NCBI RefSeq assembly: GCF_000964225.1
Contig: NZ_BAMZ01000022.1
Span: 1-64,000 of the forward strand
From: Acetobacter syzygii
GTDB taxonomy: Bacteria; Pseudomonadota; Alphaproteobacteria; Acetobacterales; Acetobacteraceae
Direction of reading: 5' to 3'
DNA length: 64,000 bases
Positions 46,802-62,021 of the stretch are shown piece by piece (the stretch's first letter is position 1; each line of letters opens with the position of its first letter). Under the pieces are notes generated by a model. The model was not told the DNA's origin and did no database searches. It was given only the letters and a program-made list of their open reading frames with translations. Position numbers and translations under genes: made by a program.

Positions 46802-46820
46802 TCTGTGAAGGTCGGTGTGT

Positions 46821-48239
46821 ATGCCCAGAACAAGAACCAAGCTGTTTGCTGGCAACAGACTCCGCCAGCTCCGCCAGCGCGAAAGTATGACGCAGGCCAC
46901 GCTGGCAGAATGTATTGGCATATCGCTCAGCTACCTTAACCAGCTGGAACGCAACCACCGCCCCCTGCCCGACCACCTGCTGCAAAACCTGTGTGAGCGC
47001 TTTGCCCTCAGCCCCGCATGGTTTGCCGATACGCGCGAGGCCCATGCCGTGCAGGCCCTGCGCGAGACAATGGCCGACCCTGTTTTTAAAAACGCCCCCC
47101 TGCCTTTGGCAAAAATGGCTGAAGCCGCGCGCCAGAGCCCTGAACTCTGCGAAGCCTTTTTAACCCTCTACCGTGCTTACGCGTTTGAGCAGGAACGGCG
47201 CGAACATGCGCCCTCAGCCAGCACACCTCCACTGGAACCCTACGAAGCTGTGGGGAACTGGGTGCAGGAACACAACAACTATTTCCATGAACTTGATTGT
47301 GCAGCAGAGAATTTTTACGAACGCCTCCTGCCCGCACCGGGCGATCTGGGCACAAGCCTGATCCACCATCTGCAAGACCAGCATGGTCTGGGCATAACCC
47401 ACACAACAGACCTGCTGGACCGAGGGCTGGTCTGGCGCATAGACCGGCGTAAACGCCAGATCCAGCTCCCGCACAACCAACCGCACGAGAGCACGCTGTT
47501 TTTTCTGGCCCAGATTATTGGCCAGCTTGAACATAGCCGCCTTATGGCCGATATTCTGCGCCGCGAGGGTCCAAAAGACCGCAATGCGCTGGAACTGGCA
47601 CGCGTGTACCTTGGCAATTATTTTGCAGGTGCGCTTATTCTGCCCTACGTAAGGTTCCTGCATAAAGCCCAGACCTTACGGTACGACGTGGATGAACTGC
47701 GCCGCCACTTTGGTGTCAGCTTTGAACAGGTCTGCCACAGATTAAGCACCATGCAGCGCTTTGGTGCGGAAGGTATTCCTTTTTATTTTCTTAAACTTGA
47801 TATTGCCGGTAATATTCTCAAAAGTTTTTCAGCAAACCGTTTTTCTCAGGCCCGTTTTGGTGGACCATGCCCGTTGTGGAACGTGTTCCGGGCTTTTGCA
47901 ACGCCGGGGCAGATTCAGGTCCAGCTTTCCCAGACTACGGATGATTCCATTTACCTGAATGTTGCCCGTACGGTCGGGCGGGAAGGACTGAGCTACGCAG
48001 ACCGACCGCGCCAGATTGCCATGGTGCTGGGCTGCACCATAGCCGATGCCACAAAAACCGTTTACGCTGCAGGGCTTAACCTGAATGACCACACGCTGGT
48101 TGTCCCTATTGGGCCGGGGTGCCGGGCCTGTGGCCGCGAGCAATGCGGGCACCGCTCGCTCCCTGTTTCTGGCCGGGTGCTGGATACGGGGAGCAACGCG
48201 CGCGGTGTTGTGCCTTACCGGGCACTGCCCGAACAATAA
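46821..48239 (+). CDS. Short-chain fatty acid regulator, PrpR/RamB (XRE + M78-like) family
   Basis: A 472-residue regulator. The N-terminal XRE-type HTH (about 8-62: RLRQLRQRESMTQATLAECIG) is followed by a long domain related to peptidase M78/IrrE and DUF2083, which in PrpR proteins senses acyl-CoA. The C-terminus has a Cys/His cluster, CRACGREQCGHR near 430-441, as in the zinc- or cluster-binding tails of this family. Divergent from prpDCB-acs, its likely target. ATG 46821 is used; a GTG six bases earlier is less likely. Its stop codon overlaps the 3' end of the candidate small RNA on the other strand. Confidence 0.88.
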   Translation: MPRTRTKLFAGNRLRQLRQRESMTQATLAECIGISLSYLNQLERNHRPLPDHLLQNLCERFALSPAWFADTREAHAVQALRETMADPVFKNAPLPLAKMAEAARQSPELCEAFLTLYRAYAFEQERREHAPSASTPPLEPYEAVGNWVQEHNNYFHELDCAAENFYERLLPAPGDLGTSLIHHLQDQHGLGITHTTDLLDRGLVWRIDRRKRQIQLPHNQPHESTLFFLAQIIGQLEHSRLMADILRREGPKDRNALELARVYLGNYFAGALILPYVRFLHKAQTLRYDVDELRRHFGVSFEQVCHRLSTMQRFGAEGIPFYFLKLDIAGNILKSFSANRFSQARFGGPCPLWNVFRAFATPGQIQVQLSQTTDDSIYLNVARTVGREGLSYADRPRQIAMVLGCTIADATKTVYAAGLNLNDHTLVVPIGPGCRACGREQCGHRSLPVSGRVLDTGSNARGVVPYRALPEQ

Positions 48240-48432
48240 AAAACCCGCACAGGGCGGGTTTGGGCTGGTGGGGCAAGGGGGAGGAGTAGAAAGAGATCTT
48301 ACGAACTGACCGGGGATGCAAAACAGTTCGTAAGTTCGGGGGGATAGTATTTTACGGTAGTCACGACAACCACAGATTGTCGCGGTGATGCCCCTTGCCC
48401 CACCAGCAGAAACGCCTTCATCACCGCGACAA
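48237..48432 (-). ncRNA. Candidate Fur-regulated small RNA, about 195 nt
   Basis: Read on the minus strand, a sigma70-like promoter (48438-48466) would start RNA near 48431 and an intrinsic terminator ends it near 48237. Stem 1 is TTGTCGCGGTGATG (48432-48419) with its perfect complement at 48390-48377. Its loop holds GCTGGTGGGGCAAGGGG (48407-48391), perfectly complementary over 17 bases to 48280-48264, so a pseudoknot or alternative fold is possible. Stem 2 is an 11-bp perfect hairpin (48334-48324 with 48308-48298). CTCCTCCCCC (48286-48277) resembles the anti-Shine-Dalgarno loops of alphaproteobacterial sRNAs. A 40-codon frame (ATG 48421 to TAA 48299) also exists but has a poor ribosome site. 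Confidence 0.6.
48241..48261 (-). terminator. Intrinsic terminator of the candidate small RNA
   Basis: AAACCCGC (48241-48248) and GCGGGTTT (48254-48261) form an 8-bp stem with a 5-base loop. The uninterrupted A-run at 48238-48243 becomes the T-run when read on minus, so its polarity serves the minus strand; the plus side has only TTT followed by GGG. Confidence 0.8.
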
Positions 48433-48437
48433 GTTAA

Positions 48438-48466
48438 TAATAAGAACCATTCTCATTAAAACGCAA
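48438..48466 (-). promoter_or_regulatory. Fur-like box overlapping a minus-strand promoter
   Basis: On minus, TTGCGT (48466-48461), 17 bases, then TTATTA (48443-48438) fits a sigma70-type promoter. Within it, AATGAGAA-TGG-TTCTTATT (48457-48439) is an inverted repeat with one mismatch and strongly resembles classical Fur boxes (AATGAGAA-TTA-TTCTCATT type). Confidence 0.6.
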
Positions 48467-48468
48467 GC

Positions 48469-48508
48469 AAAAAAACAGGGGGGCTGCATTTTTTTTGCAG
48501 CCCCCCTG
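48469..48508 (-). terminator. Intrinsic terminator of the yfdX-like gene
   Basis: CAGGGGGGCTGCA (48476-48488) and TGCAGCCCCCCTG (48496-48508) pair perfectly over 13 bp. The A-run 48469-48475 gives seven T on minus. It closes the yfdX transcript immediately before the small-RNA promoter, so the RNA is not simply its 3' end. Confidence 0.93.
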
Positions 48509-48542: not shown

Positions 48543-49358
48543 TTATTTTTCTGGTGCCGTGGCAGGTGTTGCCACCGGGGCACTGGCAGGGGCCGCAGGC
48601 GTACTGGCTGCTGAAGATGGAGCAGCCGTTGCCGGGGTTTTGGCCGTGCTGGCTGGTGCAACATTAGCCGGAGCCGCCGCTTTACCCTTGCCCGATGTTT
48701 GGGCCGCTGCGTTCTGGTCCACAAAATCATCCGAGACAAACACAATACCATCCAGCAACTGGTCCAGTGCTTCCTTGGCCTGAGCGGCCTGCCGTCCCTC
48801 GGTTAACACGCGGGCGCGGTAGAGCGTGCTTTTGGTCTGCTCCAGCGGGGCAAGAGCAATAATAAAGTCCGCATCCTCTCCTACAACCTGCAAATTCTGC
48901 TGGGCCTGTGTGTTCTGCCCTGCCTTAAGCGCCTGATTAGCCTGCTGGGCTGCGGCTTTTTTATCGGGGGCCAGTGTTTCAGTCAGAATAAACTCGCCAC
49001 CAACGGGAATCCACGTAACAGCCCCAGTGGTAGGTTTATGGGTGGCGGACACAGGATGCTGGGGCGCAGGCTGCAACTGGTTCTCTGCCGCATAAAAACG
49101 CCGGTTATCCTTTTGCGCAGCCACAAACCGTTTTTGTGCATCATAAATAGGTGGAATGGCGGCATCTGTTTTGCCCTGTGCCAGCAGGTCGCGCGCAATC
49201 AGCACATCCTGCATGGCCTTCTGCCCATCTACAGAGAGGTGGTGCAGCGCACGGCCAGCCTTGAACTTTTCCCAGTCTGTGTGAAGACCATCAGCCTGTG
49301 CCACAGAGGCGCTGACCATAAGAGCGGCAACTGCCGCCAGAGATGCCTTAAAACGCAT
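48543..49358 (-). CDS. YfdX-family exported protein
   Basis: A 271-residue protein with signal peptide 1-22 (SVAQA). Residues 25-200 match the YfdX domain: a helical LHHLSVDGQKAMQDVLIARDLL block near 38-59 and WIPVGGEFILTETLAP near 116-131. The last 55 residues are a low-complexity Ala/Pro/Thr/Ser tail, likely flexible. YfdX of E. coli and Salmonella is acid-inducible and linked to stress tolerance, which would suit an acid-producing host, but its molecular job is not known. Confidence 0.8.
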   Translation of the reverse strand: MRFKASLAAVAALMVSASVAQADGLHTDWEKFKAGRALHHLSVDGQKAMQDVLIARDLLAQGKTDAAIPPIYDAQKRFVAAQKDNRRFYAAENQLQPAPQHPVSATHKPTTGAVTWIPVGGEFILTETLAPDKKAAAQQANQALKAGQNTQAQQNLQVVGEDADFIIALAPLEQTKSTLYRARVLTEGRQAAQAKEALDQLLDGIVFVSDDFVDQNAAAQTSGKGKAAAPANVAPASTAKTPATAAPSSAASTPAAPASAPVATPATAPEK

Positions 49359-49915: not shown

Positions 49916-50491
49916 TTGTTCAACAAGGCTGACGAGTGCAGCATCTGGCTGGCCACTCATATTCTCCCGCACGAAAACCACATCCGCACAAGGCTCCGCC
50001 GTTATGCGGATATTGATGCTGATGACATTATCCACGAAGCCTATGTGACCATAGCAGAGGCCGACTGGGCAGGCATTACCAACCCGCGCGCGTATTTTAT
50101 GTCCATCTGCCGCAATCTCGTTATGCAGCATTACCGGCGGGCGCGCGTGGTGCCGGTTACAAGCCTTGCCCTTATGCAGGCCGATACCATGCCAGATGCC
50201 ATGCCCTCGGCCGAGCAGGTTGTTCATGCCCGGCAGGAAATGCGCTTTTTGGAAAAAGCCATCGCAAAACTACCGGCCCGTTGCCGGGATATTTTGATTC
50301 TGCGCAGAGCGCGTGGCCTAAGCCAGAGGGAATGCGCCGCGCAATTAAACATTTCTGAAAACATTGTAGAAAAACAGCTTGCCCGCGCACTTGTTTTTCT
50401 GTCCAAAGAATATTCGGAATCAGAGAGGGAGATGACCGTTGATGAGGAGAGACGCCCGCGTCTCGCCCACTCTCGCAAGCGCCAGCCCTGA
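49916..50491 (+). CDS. ECF sigma factor, FecI-like
   Basis: A 191-residue sigma70 ECF factor. Region 2 (about 10-75: LRRYADIDADDIIHEAYVTIAEADWAG region) and region 4 (about 110-165: LPARCRDILILRRARGLSQRECAAQLNISENIVEKQL) are clear; the region 4 wording is typical of FecI. Start is TTG 49916, with GAGGG upstream; no better in-frame start exists. Overlaps fecR by about 50 bases and precedes a TonB receptor, the standard surface-signalling arrangement for iron uptake. Confidence 0.88.
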   Translation: MFNKADECSIWLATHILPHENHIRTRLRRYADIDADDIIHEAYVTIAEADWAGITNPRAYFMSICRNLVMQHYRRARVVPVTSLALMQADTMPDAMPSAEQVVHARQEMRFLEKAIAKLPARCRDILILRRARGLSQRECAAQLNISENIVEKQLARALVFLSKEYSESEREMTVDEERRPRLAHSRKRQP

Positions 50492-51377
50492 AGAGGCGGC
50501 AGCAGGATGGACGGCCAGATTAGACAAAGGCCCCCTTTCCGCAAGCGAACAGCAGGCACTGCAACACTGGCTGGATCAGGATAGACGACACAAGGGTGCC
50601 TTCCTGCGTGCAAAGGCCATCTGGCAGGCAAGTGGCAGGCTGGCAGCACTGCATGGCCCAACCGCCCCGCCCGTTGCCCACCCTACGCCTGTACCTGCCC
50701 TGCCCCGCCGCCGCTTTTTTGCAGCAGCCGCCGCGGCTGCCCTGCTCCTTGCCACACCCAAACGGCAGGGCAAGGCCAATAGTCTGTATGCGACAGCCAA
50801 CGCTGTTTCGGCCCCTTTGCACACGGCTTTTGGCACCATTACGCTGGACTGTTACTCCAAACTTAAAATGGGGTTGCAGAGCAGCCGCCTTGTTACCGGG
50901 CGCTGCTGCGTGCTGGGCCGCACTGGTATGATTGTCAAAGCGGGCAACCTTATTTTTGCCCCACAGGGCCGCCTGCTTTTATCCTGCTCGCCAACGCAGG
51001 TTACGGCCACAAGCATTTCGGGCACCGTGCATTTGCGCAGGCACCATTCGGATGAATGGTGGACCTTAAATGCTGGCGCACAGATTAGCCTGACCGGAGA
51101 CCTCCCCCCAGAAGTACGCAGTTTATTACCCGAGGAAATGGAAGCCCAGAACGCATGGAGCATTGGCCGCCTGGAAGCGCGGGACGAAAGCATGGCCAGC
51201 ATTGCCAGCACATTCAACCGCTACAACCAAAGGCAGATCCGTGTCTCTCCAGCGCTTGCCAACCGGAAGCTTACAGGTGTTTTCAGCCTCAACCAGCCGG
51301 AAGATTTTGCCTTGGCGGCACAAACCATTCTGGGTGCCAGACTAACGCAAACCCCACAAACACTTATGCTGTATTAA
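50442..51377 (+). CDS. FecR-like anti-sigma/sigma regulator
   Basis: A 311-residue inner-membrane regulator. The N-terminal DUF4880 helix block (AAAGWTARLDKGPLSASE; HWLDQDRRHKGAFLRAKAIW) touches the sigma factor; a hydrophobic segment AAAAAALLLATP near 95-108 crosses the membrane; the periplasmic FecR domain follows (GTITLDCYSKLKM ... VKAGNLIFAPQG), and the end resembles the receptor-contacting STN-like part. It relays receptor occupancy to FecI. ATG 50442 (or TTG 50439) follows GGGAG. Confidence 0.87.
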   Translation: MRRDARVSPTLASASPEEAAAGWTARLDKGPLSASEQQALQHWLDQDRRHKGAFLRAKAIWQASGRLAALHGPTAPPVAHPTPVPALPRRRFFAAAAAAALLLATPKRQGKANSLYATANAVSAPLHTAFGTITLDCYSKLKMGLQSSRLVTGRCCVLGRTGMIVKAGNLIFAPQGRLLLSCSPTQVTATSISGTVHLRRHHSDEWWTLNAGAQISLTGDLPPEVRSLLPEEMEAQNAWSIGRLEARDESMASIASTFNRYNQRQIRVSPALANRKLTGVFSLNQPEDFALAAQTILGARLTQTPQTLMLY

Positions 51378-51490
51378 GGGGGATGGGGTGGGGTTTTATC
51401 CTGTCTTATTTGTGTAACAAAAAAAACCAGCGGAAAATGCAGCAGTTTTGACTCTTAACGGTATGTTCCGTCACAAGCAGGGCCACTACC

Positions 51491-53974
51491 GTGCAATTTT
51501 TTTCTGTCCGTGTTTCCTCTCTTGCGCTGTGCCTGTGCAGCGTATCCGTTCTTTCTGCTTCCCATGCTTTGGCGGCTCCGGTTCATTTTGCCATTCCGGC
51601 CGGGCCTCTTAATCAGGCAGTTGTAACCTTTAGCCGCCAGTCCGGGCAGCAGGTCGCACTGGATAGCTCATTGGCCGCCAAAGCCACCGCCACCCCGGTC
51701 TATGGCACCATGGAGCCAGATGCCGCCCTGACCCACCTGTTGCAGGGCACAGGTCTGGATATTGATACGCACCAAAAAAACATGCTGATCGTGCGCAAAT
51801 CCACCACGACCCCCGCCAAAGCCAGAACACACAGTGCCAGCGCAAAAAAAGAGCAGAATACAGACGAACATATTACCGTTCTGGGCCGGGCCATGCGCCT
51901 GTCGCCCGCAGTGGTGCCGCTCGATATTACGGAACCCACATCGCGCATCCAAAGCAATTTTATCAATAACAACATTATTCCACTGGCCAGTGTGGACGAT
52001 ATTATCAAGTTCCAGCCCAGCATATGGACCCAAAACCCAAATGGTCCGGGCATGGGCAAAGCCGAAACCATGAGCCTACGCGGTTTTCAGGACGGGCAGT
52101 ACAACATGACATATGATGGCATTCCATTTGGGGATGCCTCAGACCTGCACCACACAACATCCTCTTTATTTATCTCGCACTTTCTGGGCGAAGCACAGAT
52201 TGACCGTGGCCCCGGCACGGCCTCCACCATTGGCAATGCCACCTTTGGCGGCACGGTAGGCTTCCGCTCCAAAACCCCACCAAGCAAAGCAGGTGCCCAG
52301 CTTTATGGCACATATGGCAGCTTTAACACCCGTGCAGGTGGGCTGGAACTGGATAGCGGCAAAACCCGCTTTGGCAAAGCCGTTCTGGACATGCAGCATG
52401 AAGAAACAGACGGCTACCTGACCAACTCTTACGAAAAACGCAGTAACATTCTGTTCAAGGATGAAATTAAGCTGGCGGATGAGACCAGTTTGACCATCCA
52501 GACAACCTACAACAAGGAATGGCAGTACACCACTCAGGGGGCAACGCTGGAGGATTATGCCAAATACGGCAAAAACTACGGTTTGTGCAAAGACCCGACC
52601 AGACAGTGCTATTATGGGTACAACCCCAGCACCTACACATCCGACTTTAGCTATGTTGCCCTTAAAACCCGCCTGAACGACTGGCTTAGTCTGCAAAACT
52701 CAATCTACACAACAGGGTTTGAGCATGAATATACGGAATCAACCGATTCCAGCCAACGCTCGCTCGACGCCAATGGCGTGACCTTTTACAACGCCGCAGG
52801 CAAAAAAGTAGCAACATACAAATCGGATATTCCCGGAAAATACGCCGATGCCCACTTCCGCAACTATGGTGATACCCTGAACCTGACTGCAAAAACACAC
52901 TATGTGGATGTGCAGCTTGGTGTTTGGGCCGATGTGCAAAAAGACAGACGTGTAAGCTATGCGGTAGACCTTTCCAAAGGTTCCATTCCCGTTCCTGGCA
53001 AAACGGGCAGCCCTTACAGCTACAATATTTCGGATACGAACACCACGCTCCAGCCTTATCTGGAACTGGACATACACCCCCTCCCTGGTATGACCATCAA
53101 ACCCGGCGTCAAATACTCCTACTTCCACCGCGATTATGATGCGGCATTGAACAAATCCACCAAACAGCCCCTGAACGCCACACAGACCTTTACATCCTGG
53201 CAGCCATCCATTGCCATAAACCAGCGTATCATGAACCAGTGGAGCGCTTATGGGCAGATTGCCCGCGGCTTTCTGGCTCCCCCCATCTCCGTTTTTCAGG
53301 TCGGGGATGTTGGCAATGTTAAGCCCGAAACAACCATGAACTATCAGGTCGGTTCGGTTTACCGGGATAAAAAATGGATGGTGGCCGCAGATGCCTATTA
53401 CATCGATTTTTCAAACTACATTGCCGCAGCACAGATTTCCGTTCCCGGTTATGGTACCACATCCACCTACGTTAACAGCGGTGGCGCCATATACAAAGGA
53501 CTGGAACTGGAAGCACAATATGTTATCGGTTATGGTCTGTCCGTTTACGGGAACTACAGTGTAAACAGTGCCAAATACAAACACACCGATGTGCGTGTTG
53601 CCTCCAGCCCCAACATGCTGGCCTCCTTTGGGCTACTTTACGAGAACGAACGGGGCGCTTATTTTTCCCTTATTGGCAAATATGTGGGTAAACACTGGGG
53701 GCTGGACAGCACCACCAATGCCGCAGGCAACACGCAGTTTGCAAACCAGTACAAAATTGGCAGCAACGTAACTGCCGACCTTGCTCTGGGCTGGCGCATC
53801 CGCAATGCGGGCAGCATCTTCCGCGAAATTACGCCCAGCCTTAAAATTGGCAATCTGTTCAATAACCGGGCTATTAGCAACTTTGCGGGCAACCAGAGCT
53901 ATGGCGATGCCCCGCTTTACTGGCGCAACCCCGGACGTAGCGTGTTCTTCAACCTTGCGGTGACCATTCCATGA
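51491..53974 (+). CDS. TonB-dependent receptor with STN signalling domain (FecA-like)
   Basis: An 827-residue outer-membrane receptor. Signal peptide (about 1-28), then an STN/secretin signalling domain at about 32-105 (IPAGPLNQAVVTFSRQSGQQ), which binds FecR-type partners; a plug domain (about 130-270, with MSLRGFQDGQYNMTYDG) and a 22-strand barrel. The ligand is not evident: ferric siderophore, ferric citrate or another iron complex. Start is GTG 51491. GGAAAAT at 51432-51438 resembles the -35 of FecI-type promoters, but no matching -10 is certain. The next gene overlaps its stop. Confidence 0.9.
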   Translation: MQFFSVRVSSLALCLCSVSVLSASHALAAPVHFAIPAGPLNQAVVTFSRQSGQQVALDSSLAAKATATPVYGTMEPDAALTHLLQGTGLDIDTHQKNMLIVRKSTTTPAKARTHSASAKKEQNTDEHITVLGRAMRLSPAVVPLDITEPTSRIQSNFINNNIIPLASVDDIIKFQPSIWTQNPNGPGMGKAETMSLRGFQDGQYNMTYDGIPFGDASDLHHTTSSLFISHFLGEAQIDRGPGTASTIGNATFGGTVGFRSKTPPSKAGAQLYGTYGSFNTRAGGLELDSGKTRFGKAVLDMQHEETDGYLTNSYEKRSNILFKDEIKLADETSLTIQTTYNKEWQYTTQGATLEDYAKYGKNYGLCKDPTRQCYYGYNPSTYTSDFSYVALKTRLNDWLSLQNSIYTTGFEHEYTESTDSSQRSLDANGVTFYNAAGKKVATYKSDIPGKYADAHFRNYGDTLNLTAKTHYVDVQLGVWADVQKDRRVSYAVDLSKGSIPVPGKTGSPYSYNISDTNTTLQPYLELDIHPLPGMTIKPGVKYSYFHRDYDAALNKSTKQPLNATQTFTSWQPSIAINQRIMNQWSAYGQIARGFLAPPISVFQVGDVGNVKPETTMNYQVGSVYRDKKWMVAADAYYIDFSNYIAAAQISVPGYGTTSTYVNSGGAIYKGLELEAQYVIGYGLSVYGNYSVNSAKYKHTDVRVASSPNMLASFGLLYENERGAYFSLIGKYVGKHWGLDSTTNAAGNTQFANQYKIGSNVTADLALGWRIRNAGSIFREITPSLKIGNLFNNRAISNFAGNQSYGDAPLYWRNPGRSVFFNLAVTIP

Positions 53975-60504: not shown

Positions 60505-60534
60505 TTGACTTGGCCACAGCTCTCTTCGCATACT
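60505..60534 (+). promoter_or_regulatory. Promoter of the fluoride-riboswitch transcript
   Basis: TTGACT (60505-60510), an 18-base spacer and CATACT (60529-60534) predict a transcript start at about 60541, exactly at the first base of the riboswitch aptamer. Confidence 0.65.
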
Positions 60535-60537
60535 GAG

Positions 60538-60606
60538 GGTGGCAATGGACTCTGCCGGATTTTGGTAACCAAAATCGAACCGCCCTGTTGGCTGATGATT
60601 CCTACC
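60538..60606 (+). ncRNA. Fluoride riboswitch (crcB motif)
   Basis: The conserved crcB-motif elements appear in order: GGCAATGGACTCTGCC (60541-60556, pseudoknot strands GGCA and TGCC), AACCGCC (60578-60584), GGCTGATG (60590-60597) and CCTAC (60601-60605). Between the second pseudoknot strand and AACCGCC is an extra perfect hairpin, GATTTTGG-TAA-CCAAAATC (60558-60576). Fluoride riboswitches turn on fluoride exporters. The downstream genes, a stress protein and crcB, are the expected targets. GGACTC inside the aptamer is complementary to GAGTCC at 60632-60637, next to a GGAGG stretch, a possible switching partner. Confidence 0.88.
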
Positions 60607-60750
60607 CCGCAAACACTCATGCGCGAGGGAGGAGTCCGTCCAACGTTATGCGTCCAATGTGTAAACAGGCACAATGCAACACCCCCACAACACGTGGTAT
60701 GCCCCGGCTTGACCGTGCCGCCGCATACCCTGCTGGCCGGAGCCGCACCC

Positions 60751-61605
60751 ATGCGCATTCTTGCTGTTCTTGACCACCCACAGACTGCGGCCCTTACGCT
60801 GGATACAGCGCGGCAGTTAAGCCTGCGCACTGGCATTGCAGAAATTTATGCCATGCACCCCAAACTGGCGGTTGATCCGGACTTTCAAAGCCCGGATGAA
60901 GGGTTGCCAGACCCCGCGCAACAAGCACGGTTTGCCCATACAGTTGCAACCCGTGCCAAAGCCATACACCAGATTTTTGCAGACTGGGCAGCAACTCTCC
61001 CCACCACAGACCAGCCCCGCCTCCACTGGCTGGAACCTGCGGGAGATATACGAACCCTTGTTGCAAATGCCGCAGCCAAGGTGGACCTTGTCATCCTCCC
61101 GCGCCCGGGCACCACACCACCACACAGTACGGAACAGGCTTTTACCGGCGCTTTGTATGATGCACAGGCAACCGTACTGCTGCCACCCCTGCACCCGCAG
61201 GCTACTCTGGGCCAGCACCCTGTTGTTGCATGGCAGGATAACCCCTCCCTGACCCGTGCCCTACAGAGTGCGCTGCCCCTGCTCCGCACGGCCCGGCAGG
61301 TCACGGTGCTGATAGGGCAGAGCCAGTCCACCGTAATACCTGAACCCGCATGGGTAGCGGACCTGCGGGCCAGTGGTGTAGCGGTCAATGTGGACCGGTT
61401 TACGCTGGCAGACCAAAACGTGGGGGAACAGATTAGCGCCCACGCCCAACGCGCAGGCGCGGATCTGTTGATTATGGGAGCTTACGGGCGACCACAGTTT
61501 ATTGAATGGCTGCTTGATGGCCCAACCCATCATATGCTGCGCCACGGCATATGGCCGATCCTGACCCACCATGAACACAGCCCCCTAACTGGAGAACATG
61601 ACTGA
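60751..61605 (+). CDS. Universal stress protein under fluoride riboswitch control
   Basis: A 284-residue UspA-type protein: a degenerate first half (MRILAVLDHPQTAALTL start) and a second UspA half ending with the nucleotide-binding GAYGRPQFIEWLLDGPTHHML near 251-271. The real start is ATG 60751, since the open frame upstream runs through the riboswitch. It lies 2 bases before crcB, so both respond to fluoride. A 41-codon frame (60648-60773) overlaps its start and could be a leader, though nothing proves it. Role in fluoride stress unknown. Confidence 0.85.
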   Translation: MRILAVLDHPQTAALTLDTARQLSLRTGIAEIYAMHPKLAVDPDFQSPDEGLPDPAQQARFAHTVATRAKAIHQIFADWAATLPTTDQPRLHWLEPAGDIRTLVANAAAKVDLVILPRPGTTPPHSTEQAFTGALYDAQATVLLPPLHPQATLGQHPVVAWQDNPSLTRALQSALPLLRTARQVTVLIGQSQSTVIPEPAWVADLRASGVAVNVDRFTLADQNVGEQISAHAQRAGADLLIMGAYGRPQFIEWLLDGPTHHMLRHGIWPILTHHEHSPLTGEHD

Positions 61606-61607
61606 CC

Positions 61608-62021
61608 ATGCTTGCCAATATTACGCCATCTCTCCTTATTGGCCTTGCTGGTGCCGCGGGCACGCTACTGCGCTACTGGGTTGGACTGGCCACCCTGCGC
61701 TGGGGGCAAATGCTGCCCTGGGGTACTATTCTGATCAATGTTACAGGCTCTTTTGCCATTGCTTTTTTTGGCACCCTGACCGCAGCAGGTGGCCGCCTGC
61801 CCGTATCAGAAACCGGCAGACTGGTTTTTATGGTCGGATTATGCGGAGGATACACCACTTTTTCCTCCTTTAGCTTACAAACACTTGATCTTTTAAAAAA
61901 TGGCGCACCGGGGCGAGCCATGCTGAACATTGGCCTGTCTGTAGGGCTTTGTATGCTCAGCGTTACGGCGGGTTATCTGGCGGCACAGGCCATCAATACC
62001 GTTAATGGAGGCGAAAGCTAG
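61608..62021 (+). CDS. crcB: Fluoride exporter CrcB/Fluc
   Basis: A 137-residue, four-helix Fluc channel. The hallmarks are present: GAAGTLLRYWVGLAT near 14-28, the pore motif GTILINVTGSFAIAFF near 39-54 with the conserved Asn, and GLCGGYTTFSSFSLQTLDLL near 77-96 with the phenylalanine ladder. It works as a dual-topology dimer expelling fluoride. Follows the stress-protein gene by 2 bases and shares its riboswitch. Confidence 0.95.
   Translation: MLANITPSLLIGLAGAAGTLLRYWVGLATLRWGQMLPWGTILINVTGSFAIAFFGTLTAAGGRLPVSETGRLVFMVGLCGGYTTFSSFSLQTLDLLKNGAPGRAMLNIGLSVGLCMLSVTAGYLAAQAINTVNGGES

Follow-up and report, generated by a model that had tools for sequence, protein, structure and literature searches.

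A conserved pseudoknotted RNA of Acetobacter, probably a Fur-repressed iron-sparing small RNA

What is encoded in the short interval between a yfdX-family gene and a convergent regulator gene of Acetobacter syzygii, and does it belong to the iron regulation of this bacterium? A reading made from the letters alone (here the sequence-only reading) had proposed a Fur-regulated, pseudoknotted small RNA at this place. We followed this up in the window, by which we mean the whole 64,000-nucleotide stretch of contig NZ_BAMZ01000022.1, and in related genomes. The features of the locus are as follows.

48543..49358, minus: yfdX-family gene (PF10938), flanking
48476..48508, minus: terminator-like hairpin 3' of the upstream yfdX gene, from a terminator scan
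48438..48466, minus: promoter TTGCGT (48466-48461)-17-TTATTA (48443-48438), as read in the sequence
48457-48439, minus: Fur-like box AATGAGAATGGTTCTTATT, overlapping the promoter (sequence evidence)
48237..48432, minus: predicted small RNA beginning near 48431, about 195 nt long (fold, homologues)
48419..48432, minus: stem 1, 5' strand (TTGTCGCGGTGATG); 4 of 14 pairs changed on both sides
48408..48418, minus: L1 loop segment, 11 nt (10 nt in clade 3)
48391..48407, minus: long-range (pseudoknot) helix S2, G-rich 5' strand
48377..48390, minus: stem 1, 3' strand, abutting S2 without a gap
48298..48334, minus: hairpin 2, an 11-pair stem with loop UUUUGCAUCCCCGGU (48323-48309), the proposed seed
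48264..48280, minus: S2, C-rich 3' strand, paired in 16/16 homologues
48241..48261, minus: terminator-like hairpin of the RNA, present in 8/16 homologues
46815..48239, plus: convergent regulator gene with HTH and ScfRs domains, flanking (the 'prp regulator' of the sequence-only reading)

The elements of transcription initiation that had been described are all present in the sequence. The Fur-like box overlaps the promoter, a 14-bp stem begins at the predicted start (about 48431), and a hairpin (48508-48476) separates the yfdX gene from the promoter; at its position a T-run is seen in the relatives when the homologues are aligned and inspected by eye. Taken singly, the promoter, the box and the terminators are unremarkable. 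The box is the top Fur-like 19-mer of the window, agreeing at 14 of 19 positions, a score also reached in one of ten shuffled windows. The promoter of the RNA was absent from the list of a generic sigma-70 scan at its threshold, and the 1.5 kb scanned for terminator-like sites held three against 2.6 expected. Their weight comes from conservation in all 16 homologues: GAGAATNNTTCTTATTATCA, with at most one mismatch, sits at the RNA in 16/16 carriers. A Fur box lying over the promoter is characteristic of Fur-repressed iron-sparing sRNAs, and the candidate box has this placement. The RNA is probably a unit independent of yfdX.

The RNA occurs in part of the genus. Among 49 Acetobacter genomes, BLAST and a covariance model found it in the same 16, and the other 33 are without it. 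When named genomes were searched for an exact 19-mer, 15 stretches matched, of which 11 belong to Acetobacter (pasteurianus, pomorum, okinawensis with two, fabarum, lambici, lovaniensis, papayae, peroxydans, suratthaniensis and one uncultured member); the remaining four, in unrelated bacteria, score at most 15-20 bits with the model and were rejected. BLAST of 299 genomes of the family matched seven, three of which are genus members with the RNA. We rejected the other four matches, one being the box-like stretch alone and three looking like chance by eye. The model search of 397 family genomes (some of the genus), run with filters able to lose weak matches, gave strong matches in four, all Acetobacter. 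Nine other family genomes gave 21-29 bits, eight of them mostly through stem 1, and were judged to be chance from six alignments; the weak matches include one of 28.9 bits (L027) and one of full length at 22.4 bits (L031). Outside Acetobacter, we found nothing convincing in the 397 family genomes sampled. The RNA had no match in the plasmid collection, and the 18 stretches returned by a 16-mer viral scan were set aside, a 16-mer being too short to carry meaning.

The yfdX gene is next to the RNA in every homologue but one (15 of 16), whose contig ends there, and the ScfR-type regulator adjoins the RNA in 14 of 16. The regulator is also matched in 26 of the 30 non-carriers searched (33 non-carriers in all), and a model search of 19 non-carrier regulator loci, and of whole genomes, found no RNA. 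In a tree of 27 regulator proteins the carriers fall into three groups with non-carriers between them, and three label changes are needed. A single gain followed by losses, repeated gains or transfer could each account for this pattern.

The fold has been conserved along with the RNA. Stem 1 joins 48432-48419 to 48390-48377 in 14 perfect pairs around a 28-nt loop (48418-48391), and 17 bases of this loop (48407-48391) are perfectly complementary to 48280-48264, exactly the stem, loop and long-range pairing that had been proposed. When at least 60 nt are required between the two sides, 17 is the longest complementary run in the 196-nt stretch, against a maximum of 11 in 1000 dinucleotide shuffles, and the folding z-score is -6.7 against shuffles. 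The resulting helix S2 has 16 bp in the alignment and 17 in the window. Across the 16 scored columns the 5' strand does not vary in any of the 16 homologues, and the 3' strand has five variable columns, each a change from a Watson-Crick to a wobble pair. The sequence-only reading was staked on related species showing conserved pairing, and had proposed a covariance search; S2 proved to be paired in all 16 homologues, with compensatory changes in stem 1 and hairpin 2. The conserved 17-nt pairing looks structural.

Covariation was assessed on two alignments of the 16 homologues. In the model-fitted one, which leans to structure, hairpin 2 is paired in 94.9% of cells and eight of the 11 pairs of its stem have both sides changed. 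For stem 1 and hairpin 2 together 12 of 25 pairs are changed on both sides, and 0 of 500 shuffles was as high, although these and the other covariation shuffles take no account of kinship among the homologues. Both-side changes occupy 46 cells, where the shuffles average 11.7, and the signal is lost when the partners are slid. One of the five covariation measures, that of further pair types, was not above the shuffles (114/500 as high). On the alignment made from sequence without the model, 11 of the 41 pairs of the three helices are changed on both sides (1/500 shuffles as high), further pair types again do not stand out (335/500 as high), and S2 is paired in 100% of cells; hairpin 2 is off register in some rows there, with 73.9% of cells paired. 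From the same alignment RNAalifold chose S2 and did not choose stem 1 or hairpin 2. Nested folding of the window likewise prefers S2 to stem 1, at about -87 against -64 kcal/mol. Despite this preference, the compensatory changes show stem 1 to be under selection as well. There is no base between the 5' strand of S2 and the 3' strand of stem 1, and the crossing loop measures 10-11 nt, as in an H-type layout. Judged by its homologues, the RNA appears to belong to the H-type pseudoknot class, in which two crossing helices are both maintained in evolution. We infer that stem 1 and S2 can stand simultaneously.

Which part of such an RNA would meet its targets? The sequence-only reading had placed the seed at CTCCTCCCCC, masked by the pseudoknot. 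This is unlikely because the stretch is missing in two of the three clades while TTGCATCCCC is found in the hairpin 2 loop of 16/16 homologues. On the alignment made without the model, identity is 95% in the hairpin 2 loop (UUGCAUCCCC), 67% and 77% in the stem strands of hairpin 2 (lowered in part by misregister) and 60% and 43% in the two linkers. Since the CTCCTCC stretch occurs in clade 1 only, being absent from clades 2 and 3, and the hairpin 2 loop is near-invariant, we propose this loop as the seed. A second C-run lies ahead of hairpin 2 in every clade, with varying sequence. These conserved C-rich motifs, single-stranded by prediction, resemble those expected of IsrR/FsrA-type sRNAs. 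In clade 3 (L018-L020) there is an extra small hairpin between stem 1 and hairpin 2 with UCCCC in its loop, seen by computed fold in L018 and by eye in the others, which suggests repeated seeds in that clade.

Another possibility is that the C-rich 3' region (CTCCTCCCCCTTGCCCC) is itself the seed, masked by the stem 1 loop in a lock that a target, Hfq or another factor would open. The region is anti-Shine-Dalgarno-like, its perfect 17-nt pairing is kept in all the homologues, and nested folding of the window gains about 22 kcal/mol when S2 is included. In a test of orthologous start regions the 3' C-rich segment also gave a slight excess: 13 pairs reached the top tenth on both sides, where 12 shuffles gave 5-11. 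However, its CTCCTCC part is confined to one clade, the remainder is paired in every homologue, and its energies in the start windows fall inside the range of shuffled seeds. We think a masked 3' seed unlikely and keep the hairpin 2 loop as the proposed seed.

The 3' end is less uniform than the rest of the RNA. The intrinsic terminator that was said to end the unit is present in the window (48261-48241) but is kept in only half of the homologues. In these eight, the window's clade, the terminator hairpin comes after S2, and one to three T are counted in the 15 bases that follow the scored part of S2. In the other eight no terminator hairpin was found in the 90 nt past S2, and the corresponding 15 bases hold seven to nine T with at most two purines beyond the first base. 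The 8/8 split is complete, but it represents few independent events because the clade members are related. The U-rich tract directly past S2 in the eight without a hairpin implies that the pseudoknot may end transcription there, and suggests that S2 itself could serve as the terminator stem in these species. It is a tentative idea, which we rate well below an even chance, that the RNA is a self-terminating pseudoknot sRNA, in which the 5' hairpin loop forms one arm of the intrinsic terminator, ending requires the 5' and 3' ends to meet, and an ordinary hairpin was added or kept in one clade. If this is true, a ligand on the G-rich loop would give readthrough, and the self-terminating RNA would also be an iron-sparing sRNA of the Fur regulon in Alphaproteobacteria.

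The link to iron can be followed through the genome. A palindromic Fur-box pattern with at most two mismatches has 14 sites in the genome, against one for the reversed control. Besides the box of the RNA itself, 13 sites were inspected, of which seven are beside iron genes and six are not. The iron genes are a cupredoxin with FTR1, PepSY_TM (the second ORF past its box), a Bfd-like ferredoxin, a sigma-70-family factor that we label FecI-like, a heme oxygenase divergent from a TonB receptor, and two further TonB receptors; one TonB-receptor box falls within the ORF as called. The box of the RNA also recurs, as an identical stretch of 23 bases, ahead of a cupredoxin-like gene in another genome of the family, the protein label being putative. 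The genome of the window has one Hfq and two Fur-family genes, one Fur-like and one Zur-like, both proteins being below the NCBIfam naming cut-offs. For the Fur-like protein the best solved chain is 4ray (E 4.3e-48), which we take to be Magnetospirillum Fur. Gluconacetobacter diazotrophicus belongs to the same family as Acetobacter. Predicted Fur boxes of the 9-1-9 type have been described in it (in part, PMC9368920).

Two other loci were noticed in this survey. At 49916-53974 (+) the window holds genes for an ECF sigma factor, a DUF4880 (FecR-like) protein and a TonB receptor, and no member of the window's top 12 Fur-like 19-mers is placed just ahead of these genes. A good Fur-like box is also found in several Acetobacter genomes (L091-L094, L149) upstream of a gene that is presumably pyrD, which is not an obvious iron gene.

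To look for targets, we called the starts of 1037 and 1071 genes in 1.2 Mb of each of two carrier genomes. The seeds paired with the start regions no better than shuffled seeds did (6 shuffles), and over 322 ortholog pairs the agreement was not clearly above 12 shuffles. With 31 E. coli queries, mostly iron proteins or assembly factors, 10 and 13 genes were located and scored in the two samples. Here acnA stands out, ranking 11/1038 and 7/1071 (top ~1%) with the hairpin 2 loop, where UCCCCGGUCA would pair with UGAUCGGGGA at the ribosome-binding site. Helices as long as that of acnA are found in 23/1037 genes (10-bp) and, in the other genome, in 8/1071 (11-bp). None of the other located genes is in the top 2% with any of the three seeds, the best ranks being 2.9% for a cyoE-like gene, 3.5% for gltA, 5.5% for sufC and 9.4% for sdhB, with sodB at 76-98%. 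UGAUCGGGGA stands ahead of acnA in 16/16 carriers and also in 7/14 non-carriers. The altered loop of clade 3 pairs more weakly with acnA, at -14.3 to -15.0 against -21.0 to -21.8 kcal/mol, duplex energies being computed without accessibility. We consider acnA the most likely first target candidate, and treat it as a candidate only. Aconitase mRNA is named as a target of RyhB, PrrF, MrsI, FsrA and IsrR (in part, PMC9410917).

The acnA leader has a feature of its own. Just ahead of the acnA Shine-Dalgarno sequence lies a hairpin carrying a bulged C (ATCACCAGCCATCGGCTGTGAT for the genome of the window), found in 16/16 carriers and, with variations, in many of the 14 non-carriers (by eye; eight were folded). 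On its 3' side this hairpin overlaps the site proposed for the sRNA, and it may be a separate control element of the aconitase mRNA.

Taken together, the explanation that we favour, with somewhat better than even confidence, is a trans-acting, Fur-repressed and pseudoknotted sRNA of part of Acetobacter, whose hairpin 2 loop would block iron-enzyme mRNAs, that of acnA being the likeliest. When iron is present, Fur on the box over the promoter would keep the gene off; when it is absent, the RNA of about 195 nt would be transcribed. Stem 1 would form first and its loop would then capture the C-rich 3' end, after which stem 1 and S2 may stack end to end. The resulting H-type pseudoknot would close the RNA and protect it, and in those relatives that have no separate hairpin it may also serve to terminate transcription. 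The hairpin 2 loop, outside the pseudoknot, would be left to pair with the ribosome-binding sites of iron-enzyme mRNAs and block their translation.

The lack of a clear regulon in the target prediction also raises the question whether the RNA, still under Fur control, acts as a sponge or scaffold through protein binding instead of mRNA pairing. An invariant loop and a pseudoknot could form a protein site, but no Rfam family matches, and C-runs at several unpaired places favour pairing; we find protein binding rather improbable. We give still less credence to a cis-acting element of the convergent ScfR-type regulator, through antisense control or shared 3' termination. The terminator of the RNA does touch the regulator stop codon in the window, and the regulator is its usual neighbour. 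Against this, the two hardly overlap, the loops that are conserved lie far from the regulator gene, and in two A. okinawensis homologues the RNA is retained where the 1.5 kb fetched alongside shows no match to the regulator. Finally, a small protein-coding gene starting at an ATG in stem 1 (MKAFLLVGQGA...), suggested by a 40-codon open frame in the window whose first 11 residues are common to clades 1 and 2, is hardly credible and was rejected, given ORF lengths from 14 to 91 codons, a frame across S2 that differs in clade 3, compensatory stem changes and no good Shine-Dalgarno sequence by eye.

The RNA is probably a Fur-repressed iron-sparing sRNA, and a RyhB-like role is the best reading in a functional and not a homologous sense. 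On this point the sequence-only reading is partly supported, at the level of function, by the conserved RNA and box. No family of Rfam (Rfam 15) reaches its gathering score over the RNA, and the matches seen there at a relaxed threshold are far below the gathering scores of their families. Elsewhere in the window, a universal-stress-protein gene (PF00582) is accompanied by a fluoride riboswitch (RF01734, 39.5 bits) at 60532-60611 (+); the ORFs with the riboswitch are 60505-61605 and then 61608-62021 (+), the second of which looks like CrcB.

The predicted circuit is shared with RyhB and PrrF, in that Fur represses the RNA, which is made in iron starvation and would spare iron. Unlike these, the Acetobacter RNA has no Rfam match, and RyhB and PrrF have another length, fold and seed. 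RydC is not known to be under Fur control, and its seed is its 5' end; the helices of the Acetobacter RNA are 14 and 16-17 bp. RydC of enterobacteria is similar in its conserved pseudoknot and exposed seed, the fold being needed for RydC stability (in part, PMC4337610). RusT of Caulobacter crescentus is likewise alphaproteobacterial, linked to iron starvation and has its seed in the loop of the second hairpin, but it is controlled by NtrYX, is 118 nt long and lies between lolA and xth (in part, PMC11005374). The iron-sparing sRNAs IsrR (Staphylococcus) and FsrA (Bacillus) have C-rich motifs, a likeness drawn from their descriptions, with sequence compared via Rfam only. With IsrR the Acetobacter RNA would share a promoter Fur box, conserved C-rich motifs fitting Shine-Dalgarno sites and an aconitase target (in part, PMC9410917). 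It differs from both in having a pseudoknot and in that only its hairpin 2 C-motif is invariant. Several groups of bacteria have evolved iron-sparing RNAs independently (in part, PMC9410917).

In open-access titles and abstracts on acetic acid bacteria, or on alphaproteobacterial sRNAs, iron or Fur, a partial coverage beside which other print is possible, we found no description of this RNA. The portions used of the RNA-seq reports on G. oxydans (PMC5756330) and A. pasteurianus (PMC6691051) contain nothing on it either, and the RNA is apparently undescribed. On present evidence it probably works like the Fur-repressed iron-sparing RNAs, yet it is in no Rfam family. It offers a concrete, testable candidate in vinegar bacteria, which are industrially used and easily grown alphaproteobacteria. 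Its gapless fold of 14 bp and 16-17 bp would be a direct test bed for the role of a pseudoknot in the stability, seed display and termination of an sRNA.
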